A DNA stretch of 20,310 nt from an uncultured Mycoplasmatota bacterium (GTDB lineage: Bacteria > Bacillota_I > Bacilli_A > RF39 > UBA660). A program made the position numbers and the translations under genes. Position 1 is the first letter of the stretch. Each line of letters begins with the position of its first letter. Below, piece after piece: positions 1-7,419 of the stretch. The stretch lies in contig CAMMKE010000016.1 in the NCBI GenBank assembly GCA_946497375.1, forward strand, positions 1 to 20,310, read 5' to 3'. The notes under the pieces are model-generated. The model made no database searches, was not told the DNA's origin, and saw nothing but the letters and a program-made list of their open reading frames with translations.

Positions 1-1803
1 ATCACCATTTACAATTTGCACGTTTGATTTTAGATTTATTGACGGCCGGACACCGATCTCCGTGGGCGAAGTATTGCCGTTCGCGTTACCATAGTTGTTC
101 ACAAAACGCACGCCAGACGTACTATTATATGGTGTTAAAGTCCAATAAGATGTATTATTACCATATCTATCAAATTGTCCGGACATTAATTCTCCTGATC
201 TTAATAAGCCTACCTTTGCTGTAGTCGTACTTGATGTCAGAATATTATCCGTAGTATTTGTATATTTGGCAAGTTTATATGAGTCACCATCTCCTACTGT
301 TCCAAGATACCATGTAGTACTATCTTCTATCATATCACTATAACTACTATCTACATAACTTGTTAAATATTCTTCATTTAAGAATGTACCTATTGTATTT
401 GTACTTGAAAATGTTTTATTGCTGCCAAAGGCACTTGTTATAAAGGTTCCAGAACTCTTTAATGGTTCGGCACTGGTTATCTTCGTTAATCCTTTTGTTT
501 CATGGCTTACTATTCTATATAGATTATTTTCATCATTTCCAAATCTTATATATTCCCCACTATACCTGCTTGACAACAATGTTCCTGAAAGATTAGTATC
601 ATTATCTCCTTCTAAGCGATATGGGTTAGCTTCTGTTCCATCACCGCCTACTATTTTGATGCTAGATTTTAGATTTATTGATGGCCGGACACCGATCGCG
701 CTCGAAGGACTATTGTTGTTCGCGCTACCATCGTTGTAGACGCGACGCACGCGGGACGAACTATATGGTGTTAAAGTCCACCAGTAAAGTCCATTATTTA
801 AATAACCATTACTATAAGTTGTTCCATAATAACTAGACTGATACTCATACATATTAAGTAAACCTACTACATCTGTTACAGTTGTTGTTCCATTAGGTCT
901 TGTGATACTTTCCAAATCTGTATCATCCATTGTCGCATCCCACACTGCATCTGTTACAATGAACTTCTCATAATCTCTTAAATTACCTAAGAATCCATCC
1001 ACACTTGTATCATTCAACCACATTTCCATATGACTACCTTCAAAAGCTGTATTACCACTTGCATTATAAGGTATTGCACTTATATTCCATTGCGTTACTA
1101 ACTTTGTTGTCTTTGCTTTTTTATTAACACTTACCGCTCTCCATAACTTTCCACTATACCAAATATAGTTATTAGGATTTTCTCCCGTAATAAAGGTATC
1201 TACTCCATCATTATAAGTACCACCATCTGGTCCCACATTTGCTGGTATAACATCAGAAACAGGTCCTGTTAACTTAATTTCTTCAAATAAATGTCCATTA
1301 CTAGGAAGACTTAAATCATTATAATCAAGTCCTACTCCAACTCCTAAAGTTATTGTTACACTACTATTAGAATTATTTGATACTTTTATTGTATAAGTAT
1401 TACTAGAACCACTAGAACCACTTTTTTCTAAGTTTGTTCCTGCTGCTACTGGAGGAATGTTTAATCCCTCATCTACAACATACCCCGCTGTTACATCACT
1501 AGGTAAACTCCCTACGTAATAAAAATTAAATCTTGCAGCTCTATTATTTGGATTACTTAAAGTTATACTAAACTCCTTTGTTGTATTTGCCGGTACAGAT
1601 AAAATATTGCTTTCTGTACTATCTACTTGTAAAGTATAATCTAAGTTACCTGTAATTATACTTATAGCATTGCTCTTTTCTTTTGATACTGTAAACATAG
1701 CATATGAAAAGTAACTTCCTAATAATAATAAACAGATAAGTCCAACTCCTAAAATATAAAACTTAGATATATCTATTTTCATAATCTCTTTAATTCTATG
1801 CAT
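1..1803 (-). CDS. Membrane-anchored surface protein with tandem DUF6273/C-type-lectin-like repeats, 3' end cut by window
   Basis: An open frame of 601 codons without a stop runs off the left edge, so the C-terminus is missing. The start ATG at 1803 follows AGGGTGAG at good spacing. Residues about 15-37 form a hydrophobic anchor ending in SYFSYAMFT. Residues 38-130 (NAISIITGNLDYTLQV, then VPANTTKEFSITLSN) resemble the beta-rich TasA/camelysin type of surface subunit; this is inference. Two long repeats follow, each ending in W-T-L-T-P-Y ... G-V-R-P-S-I-N-L-K-S (from W342 and W554), the ending of DUF6273-like domains that I infer to have a C-type-lectin-like fold. The rest of the two repeats is very different in sequence. 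Each repeat end is encoded by a GC-rich patch unlike the rest of the gene: all 6 Arg codons there are CGN, while 10 of 12 elsewhere are AGA. Likely a displayed, diversifiable binding protein; the ligand is unknown. Confidence 0.85.
   Translation of the reverse strand, partial: MHRIKEIMKIDISKFYILGVGLICLLLLGSYFSYAMFTVSKEKSNAISIITGNLDYTLQVDSTESNILSVPANTTKEFSITLSNPNNRAARFNFYYVGSLPSDVTAGYVVDEGLNIPPVAAGTNLEKSGSSGSSNTYTIKVSNNSNSSVTITLGVGVGLDYNDLSLPSNGHLFEEIKLTGPVSDVIPANVGPDGGTYNDGVDTFITGENPNNYIWYSGKLWRAVSVNKKAKTTKLVTQWNISAIPYNASGNTAFEGSHMEMWLNDTSVDGFLGNLRDYEKFIVTDAVWDATMDDTDLESITRPNGTTTVTDVVGLLNMYEYQSSYYGTTYSNGYLNNGLYWWTLTPYSSSRVRRVYNDGSANNNSPSSAIGVRPSINLKSSIKIVGGDGTEANPYRLEGDNDTNLSGTLLSSRYSGEYIRFGNDENNLYRIVSHETKGLTKITSAEPLKSSGTFITSAFGSNKTFSSTNTIGTFLNEEYLTSYVDSSYSDMIEDSTTWYLGTVGDGDSYKLAKYTNTTDNILTSSTTTAKVGLLRSGELMSGQFDRYGNNTSYWTLTPYNSTSGVRFVNNYGNANGNTSPTEIGVRPSINLKSNVQIVNGD
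26..144 (-). repeat. DGR-like variable repeat, copy B
   Basis: This is the second copy of the patch described at 665-780, ending the second lectin-like repeat. It is about 55% GC and 23% adenine in the core (43-126). Aligned with copy A it has one 3-base indel and about 21 substitutions confined to the core. At 7 of these one copy carries adenine; the other 14 would need an altered template adenine in both copies. The flanks of 19, 14 and 17 bases are identical. The frame stays open and codes on to position 1, where the protein reads IVNGD, matching the start of the inter-repeat segment after copy A (IVGGD). A further repeat may therefore lie beyond the left edge. Confidence 0.6.
665..780 (-). 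repeat. DGR-like variable repeat, copy A (internal)
   Basis: On the coding strand it begins TGGACTTTAACACCATATA and ends ATCGGTGTCCGGCC-A-TCAATAAATCTAAAATC, both nearly identical to copy B at 26-144. The 27 codons between Tyr347 and Ser375 are about 60% GC and only about 20% adenine, in a gene that is otherwise strongly AT-rich. Variable codons are mostly of the form NNC/NNT/NNG (CGC, TCG, TAC, GAT, AGC, GCG), as expected if AAC/AAT-type template codons were changed at adenines. The encoded segment is Ser/Arg/Asn-rich and sits at the end of a lectin-like domain, the usual place for DGR variable residues. No template repeat or reverse transcriptase is visible, so the assignment is inferred. 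Confidence 0.6.
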
Positions 1804-1867
1804 TACACTCACCCTATCCTCATATAAATAGTATCATTAAATAACTTATTAGTAAAGCCCTATTTTT

Positions 1868-2927: not shown

Positions 2928-4247
2928 TTATCTTTTTTCTAAGTAGAATTCATCATTCTTCCTTTTAAGTACAAAATAATCATCACTTATTTTAATATCT
3001 TCATACTCTACAGGTATAATTTCTTCTCCATCAGAATTAATTATACCATAAAGTGTTTTATTATTAGAAACTTTACTTACAATAAATATATTAGAATAGT
3101 CTGTTAATTCAATATTATCATAATCATATGCTGTTACTCTATTTCCATTAGCGTCTATTATATATTTATTATTATCCTGATCTAATACTAAGAATCTATT
3201 ATTATTTATAATACTAATATTTAAATAATTAAACTCTAATATCTGTTCATTATTAGTATTTATAACTCCAACTAAACTATCTTTACCAACAACCGCTAGA
3301 CCAAAAGTAGTAAAGCTTTCAGTATTATTATAATCATATTGAAAGTCAATAATAGTCTCTTCTTTTTCATTTATATAGCCAACTTCATTATTACTATTTA
3401 TAGCGAAAGCTAGAGAATTAACAAAAGGTCCTATAGCAGTATAAGTATTATTTAAAGTTATTATATTATTAGTATTTATATTATATATACTATAAAATCC
3501 AGTTGGACTAACAAAATAGATATTATTATTGTTAAAGATGGTAGGAGTATAATTATTAAAGCTATCTAATTTAGTAAAAGATAAATTCTCACTATTATAT
3601 AAATAAACATCAGTATTATCATCATACATAGCACAAAAAACATAATTATTACTAGAAGAATCAGTAAGTCCATAAATTGAATCATATTTATATTCTGTTA
3701 AAATTTCTCCTTTATTATTAATTAAAGCCTGTTTTCCTTCATTAGATACTATAAATATACTATCTAATCCTTCAATACTAGTAATCATTTCAAACTCTTG
3801 ATCAAATATTTTTTCATTATTTTTATTTATAAAATAGAACTTATTATCTGATACTATTATTAAATCTTTATTAATTACTTCTATACTACTATAATTTGCA
3901 TCTATTACTTCCTTACCATGTTCATTTAAAAGACCATAGTTAGTACCATCAGTATATTGAGCTAAGCCATCCACAAACTTAAAGTCATCTAAATTTATGG
4001 TATTATCATCAAGTCGCATGCTATCTACAATGTCATACTTTAACGATGTAACCTCTTTTCCATCTTCTTTTATATATCCATACTTTTTTCCATCACTAAC
4101 AGCAACATAATGATTAGAGGGAATACCAACATATTTATAATTTAAGGCATTACTATTTAAGTTTGTAACAGTATAAATAATTACAGCTATTAAAAGTAGA
4201 GCAATGCCTAAAGATGCCAATATAAGTACTATTTTTTTACTTTTCAT
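2928..4247 (-). CDS. Membrane-anchored WG-repeat (KWG) protein
   Basis: The 439-residue protein has an N-terminal membrane anchor (residues about 5-28) and no other hydrophobic segment, so the rest is probably extracytoplasmic. The body is a chain of degenerate WG repeats of about 40-45 residues. Typical starts are YGYIKEDGKEV, YGLLNEHGKEV, ALINNKGEIL, VGYINEKEETI, VGVINTNNEQI and YGIINSDGEEI, each followed by a short acidic/aromatic strand with Y-D-x-I. The usual Trp of the repeat is replaced by Tyr, Val or Ala. WG-repeat proteins are thought to form beta-propeller-like scaffolds for protein binding; no enzymatic function is known for the repeat alone. The gene sits 8 bases after the pilin-like gene and 13 before trpS. 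The neighbourhood suggests a surface-complex partner of the pilin-like protein, which is inference. Confidence 0.85.
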   Translation of the reverse strand: MKSKKIVLILASLGIALLLIAVIIYTVTNLNSNALNYKYVGIPSNHYVAVSDGKKYGYIKEDGKEVTSLKYDIVDSMRLDDNTINLDDFKFVDGLAQYTDGTNYGLLNEHGKEVIDANYSSIEVINKDLIIVSDNKFYFINKNNEKIFDQEFEMITSIEGLDSIFIVSNEGKQALINNKGEILTEYKYDSIYGLTDSSSNNYVFCAMYDDNTDVYLYNSENLSFTKLDSFNNYTPTIFNNNNIYFVSPTGFYSIYNINTNNIITLNNTYTAIGPFVNSLAFAINSNNEVGYINEKEETIIDFQYDYNNTESFTTFGLAVVGKDSLVGVINTNNEQILEFNYLNISIINNNRFLVLDQDNNKYIIDANGNRVTAYDYDNIELTDYSNIFIVSKVSNNKTLYGIINSDGEEIIPVEYEDIKISDDYFVLKRKNDEFYLEKR

Positions 4248-4255
4248 AACTTAAA

Positions 4256-6277
4256 TCACCCCGTTACTCTAAAGGTATTTTTCATTCCAGAACTATTCTT
4301 AAATCTAAATTTTTGACTTGCTCCATCAATAATAATTTTATAATCTCCTGCTGCAAATGAAGAAACATTTACTGTATAGGACCCAAGAGTTCTGGTTTCT
4401 CCCGTTCCTAGCCATCCTGGACTTGCTATACTGAATGTATCGAGATTTTTTACACACTTATTATTAGTATTAGCAATACAAAGCGTCCTTGATTGATTAT
4501 CTTCCCAAGTATTACTCCAATTATTCATATGTACCCTTACTCGAAAACTAACAGTTGTATTATTAGAAACTTTTACATTGTCTACATACATAGTATTATA
4601 TTCTCCAGATTTGCACTGTTCTTTAGTAGGAATTTCTCTATCTTCTGGACATACATAGTAATTATTATTTAAAACTTTAGCTGACTTTGGACTTTTAAGC
4701 GTATATTTCTGATAATAATAATTATAAGAATTTTCTGGTGATTTATTTTGAAGGTTATTAGCATAATCAGTTACCTTTGTATATACTGTATATGTTCCAT
4801 AACCTGATAAGGTATAACAAAACTTTCTACTTGTTTTATTTACTTGAGCAGTATTATCTTTTATTAATGTACCATTAGGATGAGATGGGCTCCATACTTG
4901 CATACGTACAGATGATACTCCTGTATTATCTTTGGCAGTAGCACATATTTCTAGAGATTTAGTATTATAAGTACCTCTTGATTTATTATAACTGACAGTA
5001 GGTCTTGTTCTATCTAATTTAATTGTATATTTTTTTGTTACTGTATTACCTGCTTGATCAGTAGCTTTGTATACTACAGTAGATGTTCCACTCGCATTAA
5101 TATTACAAGTAGTACCATTAACATAATTATCAGTATTAGTAGATGCTCCAGTTACTTTGTAGGAAACTGTACAATTACTTTCCGAATCACTACAAGCACC
5201 TCTTAATACTACATAACCACTATACCACGTATTATTAGTATAATTTGATAATGAATTTATATTAGATGTATCTTTTAAATTAGTACTATTTTTCTTTTTC
5301 TTTAAAACAACACTTAAATCAGGTTTCGTTTTATCTATATTATAACTATCAGTAGTAGCTGTACAACTATTTCCATTACTATCATAAAGTACAACTTTTA
5401 TCTTATTAGATCCTTCTGTATTTAAAGTTATACTTTGCTTCCCACTACCTATATAACTATTTAATAATTCTTCTTTTTCATTAGTTATTTTACTCAGATC
5501 CATTCTATAAGTATTATCTGGTACATTAATATCTACAGTAATATTTTTATTTGTCCACGTCCCTTCTTTGACACTACTATCAAATTCCACAGCACTACAG
5601 TCTATTCCATTATATATTGAATACTGTCCTGATTCTCTCGTCGCTCTATTACCATTTTGATCTATGGCATATCCTGTTATTTCATATAAACCTATTTCTG
5701 TTAAATTTATTGTTACTTCTTTATTATAGGTCTGATATTCACTATCATAATATTTTTCTTTATCTTTAGTAATTACATATCTATATGATGCTACTCCTAC
5801 ATTATCTGTTATATTCATCTTAACAGTTATACTATCATCTGATGAAGCTTTATTAGGAGTAAACGTAATAGTAGGACTACTTTCATCTTTGTCAGTTTCA
5901 TATTTATTATCACATTTTAACAAACCATAGTATTGATAATCTTTATCTGTTACTTTTTGACTAGTTACATTGCTCTCTTTAAAATTACAATCATTATCAT
6001 CTTCATCTTTAATAGGATCAATATAATTTTCATTTATTAAAGTTTCTAAAGTAACACTTGACGTACCACCTATTTTTTTCGGCAACTCACTCCTATGATC
6101 GGCAAAATATTCTCTACCTGCTAATATTAACATGTCCTCTTGACTTTGATAATAACTTTCATCCCCTCTTTTTAAAATACTTCTTACACTTATATAACCT
6201 AAAGTAACTAATAGTGATAATATTATTATCGTTGCTAGTAACTCTAGCATTGTAAATCCCTTATTCTCTTTATTCAT
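4256..6277 (-). CDS. Type IV pilin-like protein with large Ig-like repeat ectodomain
   Basis: The N-terminus NKGFTMLELLATIIILSLL is a textbook class III (type IV) prepilin signal. Cleavage is expected between G7 and F8, with the conserved Glu at +5 (E12) and a hydrophobic helix to about residue 29. Residues 40-130 form a small pilin-head-like domain (LPKKIGG ... VTLETLINENYI ... NDCNF ... LLKCD). About four Ig-like units follow (roughly 135-225, 226-315, 316-424, 425-513), marked by DKTKPDLSV, DRTRPTVSY and ATDQAGNTVTKKY. A C-terminal domain (515-673) contains several Cys. At 673 residues it is several times longer than ordinary pilins, suggesting a tip adhesin or structural minor pilin. It is first in an operon with the WG-repeat gene and trpS. 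It ends in TGA. No pilus ATPase, platform or prepilin peptidase gene is in the window. Confidence 0.85.
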   Translation of the reverse strand: MNKENKGFTMLELLATIIILSLLVTLGYISVRSILKRGDESYYQSQEDMLILAGREYFADHRSELPKKIGGTSSVTLETLINENYIDPIKDEDDNDCNFKESNVTSQKVTDKDYQYYGLLKCDNKYETDKDESSPTITFTPNKASSDDSITVKMNITDNVGVASYRYVITKDKEKYYDSEYQTYNKEVTINLTEIGLYEITGYAIDQNGNRATRESGQYSIYNGIDCSAVEFDSSVKEGTWTNKNITVDINVPDNTYRMDLSKITNEKEELLNSYIGSGKQSITLNTEGSNKIKVVLYDSNGNSCTATTDSYNIDKTKPDLSVVLKKKKNSTNLKDTSNINSLSNYTNNTWYSGYVVLRGACSDSESNCTVSYKVTGASTNTDNYVNGTTCNINASGTSTVVYKATDQAGNTVTKKYTIKLDRTRPTVSYNKSRGTYNTKSLEICATAKDNTGVSSVRMQVWSPSHPNGTLIKDNTAQVNKTSRKFCYTLSGYGTYTVYTKVTDYANNLQNKSPENSYNYYYQKYTLKSPKSAKVLNNNYYVCPEDREIPTKEQCKSGEYNTMYVDNVKVSNNTTVSFRVRVHMNNWSNTWEDNQSRTLCIANTNNKCVKNLDTFSIASPGWLGTGETRTLGSYTVNVSSFAAGDYKIIIDGASQKFRFKNSSGMKNTFRVTG

Positions 6278-6298
6278 TATCCCACATCCCTATTATAA

Positions 6299-6327
6299 AT
6301 TATAAAGTAAAATATAGAAAATTGCAA
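6299..6327 (-). promoter_or_regulatory. Promoter of pilin-like/WG-repeat/trpS operon
   Basis: On the minus strand TTGCAA (6327-6322), a 17-base spacer and a perfect TATAAT (6304-6299). The predicted start would leave a leader of about 15 bases before the ATG at 6277, with GGGATGTGGG as ribosome-binding region. A second TATAAT lies at 6297-6292 but lacks a good -35. Confidence 0.7.
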
Positions 6328-6382
6328 AGTAATAATAACATATATTTATTTTTTTTACATATTATTTATTAGGTGAATCTAA

Positions 6383-6748
6383 ATGAATTATTTAAAAAAA
6401 ATAGGAAAATTTTTATTAACTACTATTGTTAGTATAGTTATTTTAGGATTATTATTAAATATTTTATATTATTTTGATATTATAAATAACAATATTTATA
6501 ATATCATGAAAATGGCTGTGGTTTTAATTGTTCTATTTATCAATACATTTTTCTTAGGTAAGACATCTATAAAATATGGAATGATTGAAGGCTTAAAACT
6601 AGGAGCAATTTTTCTATTTGTAATGATTATCTTAAAGTTAATAACTAATAGTACTTTTGATATTAGAACTTTTATTTATAGTTTAATTATTTTACTAACA
6701 ACTAGTGTAGGGGCAATTATTGGTATTAATAGAAAAGAAAAGAAATAA
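6383..6748 (+). CDS. Small four-helix membrane protein, TIGR04086/DUF3792-like
   Basis: The 121-residue protein has four hydrophobic segments (about 9-30, 40-59, 66-87, 96-115) joined by short loops, and a lysine-rich C-terminus (NRKEKK). Length, topology and the G-x-x-E-G-L-K-L-G segment in the third helix fit the TIGR04086 (DUF3792, YrzE-like) family of small Bacillota membrane proteins, whose function is not established. The start ATG follows AGGTGA at 6 bases. It is one of only three plus-strand genes here. It is divergent from the pilin-like operon and convergent with trmK, with only two bases between the stop codons. The weakest part of the call is the family name; that it is an integral membrane protein is clear. 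Confidence 0.7.
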   Translation: MNYLKKIGKFLLTTIVSIVILGLLLNILYYFDIINNNIYNIMKMAVVLIVLFINTFFLGKTSIKYGMIEGLKLGAIFLFVMIILKLITNSTFDIRTFIYSLIILLTTSVGAIIGINRKEKK

Positions 6749-6763
6749 AGTTAAGAGCTTAAC
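6729..6763 (-). terminator. Weak terminator candidate after trmK
   Basis: The near-palindrome GTTAAGAGCTTAAC (6750-6763) covers the trmK stop codon. On the minus strand it is followed by a T-rich run (TTTATTTCTTTTCTTTTC). The stem can hold only about five AT-rich pairs around a four-base loop, so strength is doubtful. Confidence 0.3.
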
Positions 6764-7419
6764 ATCTCTTCTAAATACTTTATTTCTTTTTTAGTTACTA
6801 TTATCTTATTTCTAAATGATTTAGGTAAAACTTTAAGTAAAGACTTCTTTGTAGTTAAGATACTTTGATAATATTCTTTAGTAAGACTATCATTTTTAAG
6901 ACTTAATATAGGGCCTAAAAATAGTTTTTTATATGAATAATACTTTCTTCCTTTCTTAAAGACCAATATCTCATAAATTATCTTATTGTCATTAACTAAA
7001 ACTTCATTATCGATATGATATCCTAGTTTTATCATTTTTCTTTTAACAGCAAGAGAATAATTATTAGGTGATAATATTAAAGTATCTACATTTTTTAAAC
7101 ATTTTCTATTATCATCTAATATTTTATTTATAGTAAGTCCCCCCATACCTGATATAGTAACTGTATCTATTCCTTCAGTATAAGAATCTAATCCTTCAGC
7201 TTTTACTAACTTTACTTTATCAGATACATTATAATACTTAACATTCTCTCTAGCTTTCTTTAAAGGTCCACTTTTATTATCACTAGCAATTGCTTTACTA
7301 AAGTCTCTTTCTTTAACCAAATATATGGACAAAAGAGCATGATCACATCCAATATCTAGTGGATATGTTGAAAGGGGCACTAAGTCCCCTATAGTTTTTA
7401 ATCGATTATTTATTTTCAT
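6751..7419 (-). CDS. trmK: tRNA (adenine(22)-N1)-methyltransferase
   Basis: The enzyme transfers a methyl group from S-adenosylmethionine to N1 of adenine 22 in the D-loop of certain tRNAs. Family features seen: the SAM-binding motif YPLDIGCDHALLSIYLV (residues 19-35), an acidic SDN loop near residue 47, ISGMGGLTI (89-97) and LILSPNN, close to the family's LILQP motif. At 222 residues the length matches B. subtilis TrmK (YqfN). Its ATG directly follows the rpoD stop (TAG-ATG), and the nearest purine-rich stretch (AAAGGAT) is about 15 bases away, so translation is probably coupled to rpoD. Location behind rpoD is the conserved Bacillota arrangement. The NIF3-like gene that often follows is absent; the next gene is convergent. 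Confidence 0.92.
   Translation of the reverse strand: MKINNRLKTIGDLVPLSTYPLDIGCDHALLSIYLVKERDFSKAIASDNKSGPLKKARENVKYYNVSDKVKLVKAEGLDSYTEGIDTVTISGMGGLTINKILDDNRKCLKNVDTLILSPNNYSLAVKRKMIKLGYHIDNEVLVNDNKIIYEILVFKKGRKYYSYKKLFLGPILSLKNDSLTKEYYQSILTTKKSLLKVLPKSFRNKIIVTKKEIKYLEEMLSS

Follow-up and report, generated by a model that had tools for sequence, protein, structure and literature searches.

Diversity-generating retroelements (DGRs) resembling the system described here are known from gut phages (PMC10743442, PMC11792537), in which the variable repeat (VR) lies in a C-type-lectin-like DUF6273 domain and is accompanied by a template repeat (TR), the Avd protein and a reverse transcriptase (RT), with some two-target cases. 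Multiple VRs were recorded for 271 of 948 DGRs in PMC6642488, some of them with several templates, and Thiohalocapsa PB-PSB1 (PMC10907252) carries nine DGR loci with 15 targets and 21 VRs, some of the loci being incomplete and best explained by action in trans. Among the cyanobacterial remote variable proteins (PMC7517822), as here, targets are dispersed away from the RT. We analyzed a 20,310-nucleotide stretch of DNA (contig CAMMKE010000016.1 of assembly GCA_946497375.1; hereafter the window), which begins within a gene bearing two G+C-rich patches, at positions 665-780 and 26-144. Comparison with sequences of relatives indicates that these patches are very probably the two VRs of a single DGR target gene, carried by a member of the Bacilli living in the gut. 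The DGR is a known kind of system, which in this genus serves a large gene family. The features concerned are given below, where A denotes adenine on the coding strand or in the template, and where L, G and C numbers label the loci, genomes and contigs of the comparison set.

Positions 1 to 1812, minus strand: DGR target gene, an open reading frame (ORF) of which 604 amino acids are read, with its 3' end beyond the window edge.
Positions 664 to 1074, minus strand: DUF6273 domain 1, Pfam-aligned part, residues 247-383 (PF19789 match).
Positions 683 to 765, minus strand: variable repeat 1 (VR1), template-matching core at the end of DUF6273 domain 1, delimited by comparison with the foreign template L077.
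Positions 683 to 693, minus strand: GGTGTCCGGCC, the G+C-rich 3' end of VR1, read in the sequence; template 3' ends are similarly C/G-rich.
Positions 1 to 600, minus strand: linker and DUF6273 domain 2, residues 405-604 (second PF19789 stretch and conserved pattern in the homologue alignment), 3' end cut by the window.
Positions 44 to 126, minus strand: variable repeat 2 (VR2), template-matching core at the end of DUF6273 domain 2, from the weak comparison with L077 and from hypervariable columns.
Positions 44 to 54, minus strand: GGTGTCCGGCC, the same element at the 3' end of VR2, read in the sequence.
Positions 1669 to 1803, minus strand: N-terminal helix, residues 4-48, from the sequence and a low-confidence whole-protein model.

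Relatives of the window gene displayed templates from which neighboring VRs differed mostly at adenines. We screened 49 loci, together with the initial 2500 bases of the window, for pairs in which one copy differs mainly at the A of the other, and four loci (L009, L045, L060 and L065) yielded TR/VR pairs, with the TR starting 259-264 bases after the start of the last VR. Differences within these loci were 12 at A and none elsewhere, and 14 and none (L009), 13 and none, and 20 and one (L065), nine and one, and 11 and none (L060), and 13 and one, and 11 and three (L045). An inverted repeat after the stop of the target (noticed by eye) preceded each of these four templates, and about 200 conserved bases followed it. 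Loci L006 and L039, where the scan gave no pair, were later seen to hold a template interrupted by a transposon. The 24 named template-RNA loci yielded 18 parsed templates (21 distinct templates over all loci), and the TRs were mostly 83-87 bases long as parsed. Pooling the TR-VR pairs that passed the score limit (20 of 28), 235 of the 483 template A differed, compared with 65 of the 1071 remaining bases, the template A being replaced by G in 119 cases, by T in 85 and by C in 31. A symmetric score treating all bases alike returned again 20 pairs and identical counts.

The window itself fitted this pattern through VR1, which differed from the foreign template L077 at 12 of 26 A and three of 49 non-A positions (p 8.4e-5) and from L089 at 13 of 26 and three of 49, these being the best two of 18 templates for VR1 and the p-value being uncorrected for that choice. 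The first-pass annotation, which had read the patches as DGR variable repeats from the letters of the window alone, is supported by same-genus relatives that carry a TR, Avd and an RT beside Avd, and by the enrichment of TR-VR differences at template A. Both window VRs end in the G+C-rich GGTGTCCGGCC, which occupies the position of a putative initiation-of-mutagenic-homing (IMH) element, a function that we presume. A candidate hairpin, the inverted repeat after the stop of the target, was seen in L009, L045, L060 and L065, and the flank downstream of VR2 lies beyond the window. In known DGRs a hairpin comes after the VR (PMC3240598). Alignment of the DNA following the TR (19 of 22 parsed sequences, three short ones omitted) gave 56 consensus pairs, five of them with compensatory change, and a covariation term of -0.68, which suggests an RNA structure there. 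A search of the window, L009, L073, L076, L089 and L087 at Rfam gathering scores gave no match.

Base composition set the patches apart from the remainder of the gene. G+C content at third codon positions (GC3) was 0.494 in the patches (77 codons; 0.50 in VR1 and 0.49 in VR2) against 0.169 elsewhere in the gene (527 codons), while the 15 other genes of the window had a GC3 of 0.143 and a maximum of 0.357 among 5416 sliding 28-codon stretches. The whole patches had 46% and 50% G+C, and the VR1 core (683-765) had 59% G+C and 19% A. As claimed earlier, all six arginine codons inside the patches were CGN (two CGC, two CGT, two CGG), while 10 of the 12 outside were AGA. Patches of foreign G+C-rich DNA, or a compositional accident, would account for such a contrast in GC3; this origin is refuted for VR1 by the same-genus template L077, which matches it at 46 of 49 non-A positions, and its probability overall is negligible.

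The two copies differed from each other exactly as had been claimed, by 21 mismatches and one 3-base gap in the alignment, with A in one copy at seven of the 21 mismatches on the coding strand. That comparison cannot test adenine bias, because both copies have presumably been rewritten and the reference template is missing; the count of seven in 21 is no evidence against a DGR, both copies being products. When placed on the L077 template, 11 of the 21 differences fell at template A, nine at non-A and one outside. The nine non-A differences suggest that VR1 and VR2 do not share a template, or that they were copied from older and younger versions of one. Two templates had been proposed at the outset, which is a reasonable account of the non-A differences; two or three template-RNA matches, some of them partial, were listed in five of the 35 genus genomes. 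The accompanying proposal that the patch codons descend from AAC/AAT codons held by eye on L077 for CGC, TAC, GAT and AGC and failed for one TCG of VR1, where L077 has TCT.

Variation among the proteins pointed in the same direction. In an alignment of 74 proteins, the residues K, E, Q, M and W made up 17 of 1626 in the 22 columns where the template encodes asparagine, whereas 24 further columns of high entropy had 341 such residues among 1769; the mean entropies in the column comparison were 2.90 and 0.62. The 22 template-asparagine columns held almost solely residues reachable from AAY codons, next to nearly invariant neighboring columns, and 11 columns of VR2 were hypervariable among homologues. 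As in DGRs, the VR ends a domain of C-type-lectin-like fold and variation is almost confined to AAY-derived residues. The DGR reading is secure for the family as a whole, and VR1 and the protein columns extend it to the window gene. Recombination among the many paralogues combined with diversifying selection, without any reverse transcription, would find material for gene conversion in the DUF6273 domain matches (not genes), which all 35 genus genomes contain and which number as many as 25 in a single genome, and mosaics could underlie the differences of VR1 from VR2 at non-A positions. We regard this alternative as highly improbable; it leaves unexplained the location of differences on template A, the almost exclusive use of AAY-reachable residues at 22 columns with nearly invariant neighbors, and the existence of a TR RNA with Avd and RT.

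Complete loci encoded, in order, the TR, about 200 conserved bases, a small ORF, Avd and the RT. The RT of L002 (genome G001) matched phrog_1423 'Reverse transcriptase' and had its best PDB match in 8ub7 (E 2.9e-19), which we take to be a DGR RT. The adjacent Avd matched phrog_3206 'Avd protein of DGR' (E 3.4e-7) and the Pfam family bAvd below the cut-off (E 0.0021); no template was found on the L002 contig. Adjacency to Avd and a template, and 8ub7 as the best PDB match, point to a DGR-type RT in the relatives. The conserved small ORF (about 117 amino acids) between template RNA and Avd was read at 440-784 in L072, at 2116-2466 in L083 and in other loci; for its L002 copy, Pfam and NCBIfam gave no family, and the PHROG matches were weak and to groups without a known function.

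Among the RTs of G001, that of L002 fits the DUF6273 DGR. The L001 RT exceeds the TIGR04416 cut-off and is encoded by a group II intron, the L003 RT resembles one by eye only, and the L005 RT belongs to a second DGR-like locus having template-like repeats of another type. This second locus (L001/L005, about 24.2-29.1 kb of G001:C1) encodes an Avd (phrog_3206, E 2.8e-27) and two template-like repeats of RGGN...FRLVM type. A group II intron with an RT of its own interrupts the L005 RT after YMD, and both pieces of the interrupted RT match phrog_1423.

Several observations weigh against reading the patches as DGR variable repeats. No library names the relatives' RT as a DGR RT, and the NCBIfam group II RT model scored it at 90.5 bits for a cut-off of 300. 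The scan found no TR/VR pair in 45 of the 49 loci and no template within the first 2500 bases of the window, which ends short of the 259-264-base distance at which the TR begins in relatives. Eight of the 28 TR-VR pairs did not fit (two each from L068, L080 and L085, one each from L071 and L084), so that all 28 together sum to 330 of 637 A and 233 of 1427 other bases, and p-values from pooled counts overstate independence because the loci share ancestry. VR2 had no good foreign template, the best, L077, giving a weak fit (11 of 26 A, nine of 49 others, p 0.026). Among the four trpS-side relatives read past the target, a template was found only in G013 and none in G019, G009 or G004, the G019 contig stopping 214 bases after the end mark of the VR. 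Finally, the TR halves of G013 matched the window worse than their own gene: against VR1, the left half differed at seven of 14 A and two of 28 others and the right half at three of 10 and six of 24, and against VR2 these counts were five of 14 and four of 28, and five of 10 and eight of 24. The template-less syntenic relatives and the poor fit of the right TR half leave the odds of the DGR reading unchanged, because neither the VR1 match nor the protein columns depend on an adjacent template. As a separate observation, the templates of L068, L071 and L080 are 65-71 bases long and do not fit the neighboring VRs.

Next to trpS, G013 encodes two targets in tandem, the inner with an AT-rich VR end and the outer with G+C-rich VRs. 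The left half of a TR follows the outer target and runs into a transposon at the contig end; compared with VR1 of its own gene, this half differs at 10 of 14 A and none of 28 other bases. The right TR half, on contig C82, would belong to this left half. A pattern search of 18 stretches around trpS found no intact template, and four of these stretches (in G013, G014, G019 and G028) reach a contig end inside the target/template region; such ends were noted in L122, L123, L125 and L126. In the genome of the window, a template may or may not adjoin the target.

Gene content downstream of the template varied among the 24 template-RNA loci, which were sorted by their downstream genes (L074 and L082 starting after the template). 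An RT match of at least 300 residues was obtained in seven (L072, L073, L076, L079, L081, L083, L089), a partial or broken RT, which a contig end may explain in some cases, in five (L069, L080, L082, L085, L090), and one (L088) terminates in Avd. Seven loci (L068, L071, L074, L075, L084, L086, L087) showed no small ORF, Avd or RT within 880-7953 bases downstream, and in four (L070, L077, L078, L091) the downstream sequence was too short. In the available sequence, most targets were found without a template alongside, and some target-template cassettes without an RT nearby, so that the RT, and often the template, would presumably act from elsewhere in the genome. In G001 a cassette lacking an RT (C20) coexists with a contig encoding Avd and RT (C78), which makes action of the RT in trans on RT-less cassettes plausible.

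G001 also holds 29 VR-end cores ranging from 62% down to 28% G+C. Two of them (59% and 56% G+C) match the C20 template at every non-A site, with 13 and 11 of 24 A differing and none of 56 other positions. The patches of the window could be former VRs whose rewriting stopped when the template or RT was lost or interrupted, a sub-case of the DGR reading rather than its competitor. Templates are often interrupted (four of the 24 template-RNA loci, L075, L083, L087 and L091, plus that of G013), the broken or partial RTs (five of 24) and the loci without RT downstream (seven of 24) would agree with such losses, and the grading of the G001 cores would fit a decay of copies no longer in use. The two VRs of the window remain rich in G+C, in the VR1 core as in the GC3 of each, so that any loss of template or RT would be recent, and we hold cessation to be possible yet rather unlikely.

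The two patches, taken as DGR VRs, would have arisen as in known DGRs, where the TR RNA is copied by the RT with Avd, random bases being inserted at A, and the complementary DNA replaces the VR. AAC and AAT codons would thereby become many residues while other positions stay. Loss of A, together with the C/G content of the TR itself, would render fresh VRs G+C-rich in an AT-rich genome, and copies no longer rewritten would drift back to AT, judging from the one genome G001. At the cell surface, the protein probably exposes a pair of C-type-lectin-like domains whose binding faces vary.

The target gene is composed of an N-terminal helix, a beta-rich part and two DUF6273 domains, each ended by a VR; window base 1 falls inside the last domain. 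PF19789 (DUF6273) matched the protein over two stretches (E 2.2e-11), and 3542 homologues were retained at E<=1e-10 (7994 candidates scored). Residues 190-405, comprising domain 1, were modelled as a C-type-lectin-like fold (AlphaFold2 pLDDT 95.0, pTM 0.91) and structural matches agreed, while the model of the whole protein was of low confidence (pLDDT 41.7). The N-terminal helix, read from the sequence and from that model, is a possible membrane anchor. The N-terminal part had a best E of 0.4 against PDB sequences, the profile of the A3 alignment matched no PDB sequence up to E 1, and NCBIfam at E 0.01 gave no family for the target, Avd or the small ORF. Beyond trpS, the window encodes two proteins (2928-6277), one with WG repeats and the other beginning with a pilin-type N_methyl stretch, which are perhaps further surface proteins.

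Relatives were spread over the whole genus. The genome nearest to the window was G001, with 29% of sampled 31-letter words in common, and the window gene was matched in 34 of 35 genomes of the nearest genus, one of two others of the family and one of the 23 remaining genomes of the class. Searching for an exact 30-mer taken from downstream of the template gave 24 stretches of named genomes, labelled Candidatus Onthousia in four and uncultured Bacilli, Tenericutes or bacterium in the rest; we infer that the nearest genus, of gut Bacilli, is Candidatus Onthousia. Template-RNA matches were present in 24 of the 35 genus genomes (one to three each, some weak or partial), an RT at E<=1e-20 in 31 of 35, more distant RTs included, and an RT close to that of L002 (identity of 74% or higher over no fewer than 200 residues) in 17 of 35.

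One and the same sequence interrupted the templates of G001, G013, L087 (G035) and L091 (G022).

L087, positions 3104 to 6503, and L091, positions 3508 to 6907, template orientation: RIT-like element; also in L006, L125, L142, L170 and L173.

The element was whole in L087 and L091, where it measures 3399 bp and contains three tyrosine recombinases and a 20-base palindrome at one end; the three L087 ORFs match PHROG integrases. Its three adjacent tyrosine recombinases and defined ends would place it with the RIT type. The terminal 16-mer of the element occurred 11 times in seven of the 35 genomes, and half a template adjoined all nine ends with readable flanks, by eye, the other two lying at contig ends; sister elements at other sites could be missed, because the 16-mer came from template-borne copies. 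A search with the first recombinase returned four close copies at 85-100% identity (G001, G022 and G035, all in templates, and G024, where the contig is truncated on either side) and, in G020, a relative at 38%, the available flanks of which showed no template by the simple motifs tried. If the transposon is truly template-specific, it has settled on a target sequence that is preserved even as the copies made from it are scrambled. Switching of templates by its excision is our conjecture. An encompassing view, in which one dispersed, genus-wide DGR network of many paralogous lectin-like surface proteins, sometimes with several templates and with RT-less cassettes served in trans, is joined by a RIT-type transposon using the TR as attachment site and switching templates off and on by excision, is doubtful as a whole. 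Other DNA also cuts a template in L083 (about 529-1850), before a complete Avd-RT set, leaving only the 3' end; this DNA carries a transposase-like ORF, by eye.

The system adds a gut Bacilli lineage with assembled genomes of 0.9-1.7 Mb to the keepers of targeted protein diversification, with a large family of candidate targets. G+C-rich, CGN-rich islands at the ends of lectin domains in AT-rich genomes may serve as a sequence clue to recent DGR rewriting. Such loci may be under-reported, because in four of the 18 trpS stretches the contig breaks off within the target/template region, and the DGR survey of Roux et al. (PMC8144416) would, in its own account, miss remote targets. Among the literature titles listed, searched as titles only and with subscription papers mostly and preprints wholly outside the search, none concerned DGRs of Onthousia or the insertion of RIT elements into DGR templates.

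Compared with known systems, the RIT elements of PMC3414803 likewise have three adjacent tyrosine recombinases, around 3,500 bp and an inverted repeat and palindrome near the ends, but the present element inserts in a DGR template repeat, a site not named for RIT elements in the accessible part of that paper. The target protein had no match among 50,697 phage records, and one exact TR-RNA 30-mer had none among viral contigs, diverged copies being able to escape an exact 30-mer. Treponema denticola variable protein 1 (PDB 2y3c) was among the structural matches, with a similarity within the range of the common fold alone according to the tool note. The multi-VR DGRs of PMC6642488 differ in their target families (DUF1566 and others), and, unlike the cyanobacterial remote variable proteins (PMC7517822), a few of the dispersed targets here have their own adjacent template. 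The targets of Thiohalocapsa PB-PSB1 are putative conflict-system sensors (PMC10907252), whereas here a single genus-wide paralogue family is served, with some RT-less cassettes and a transposon in the template. The gut-phage DUF6273 targets (PMC10743442, PMC11792537) are phage or prophage proteins, whereas the target of the window has an N-terminal helix and a beta-rich part and lies beside a chromosomal trpS.
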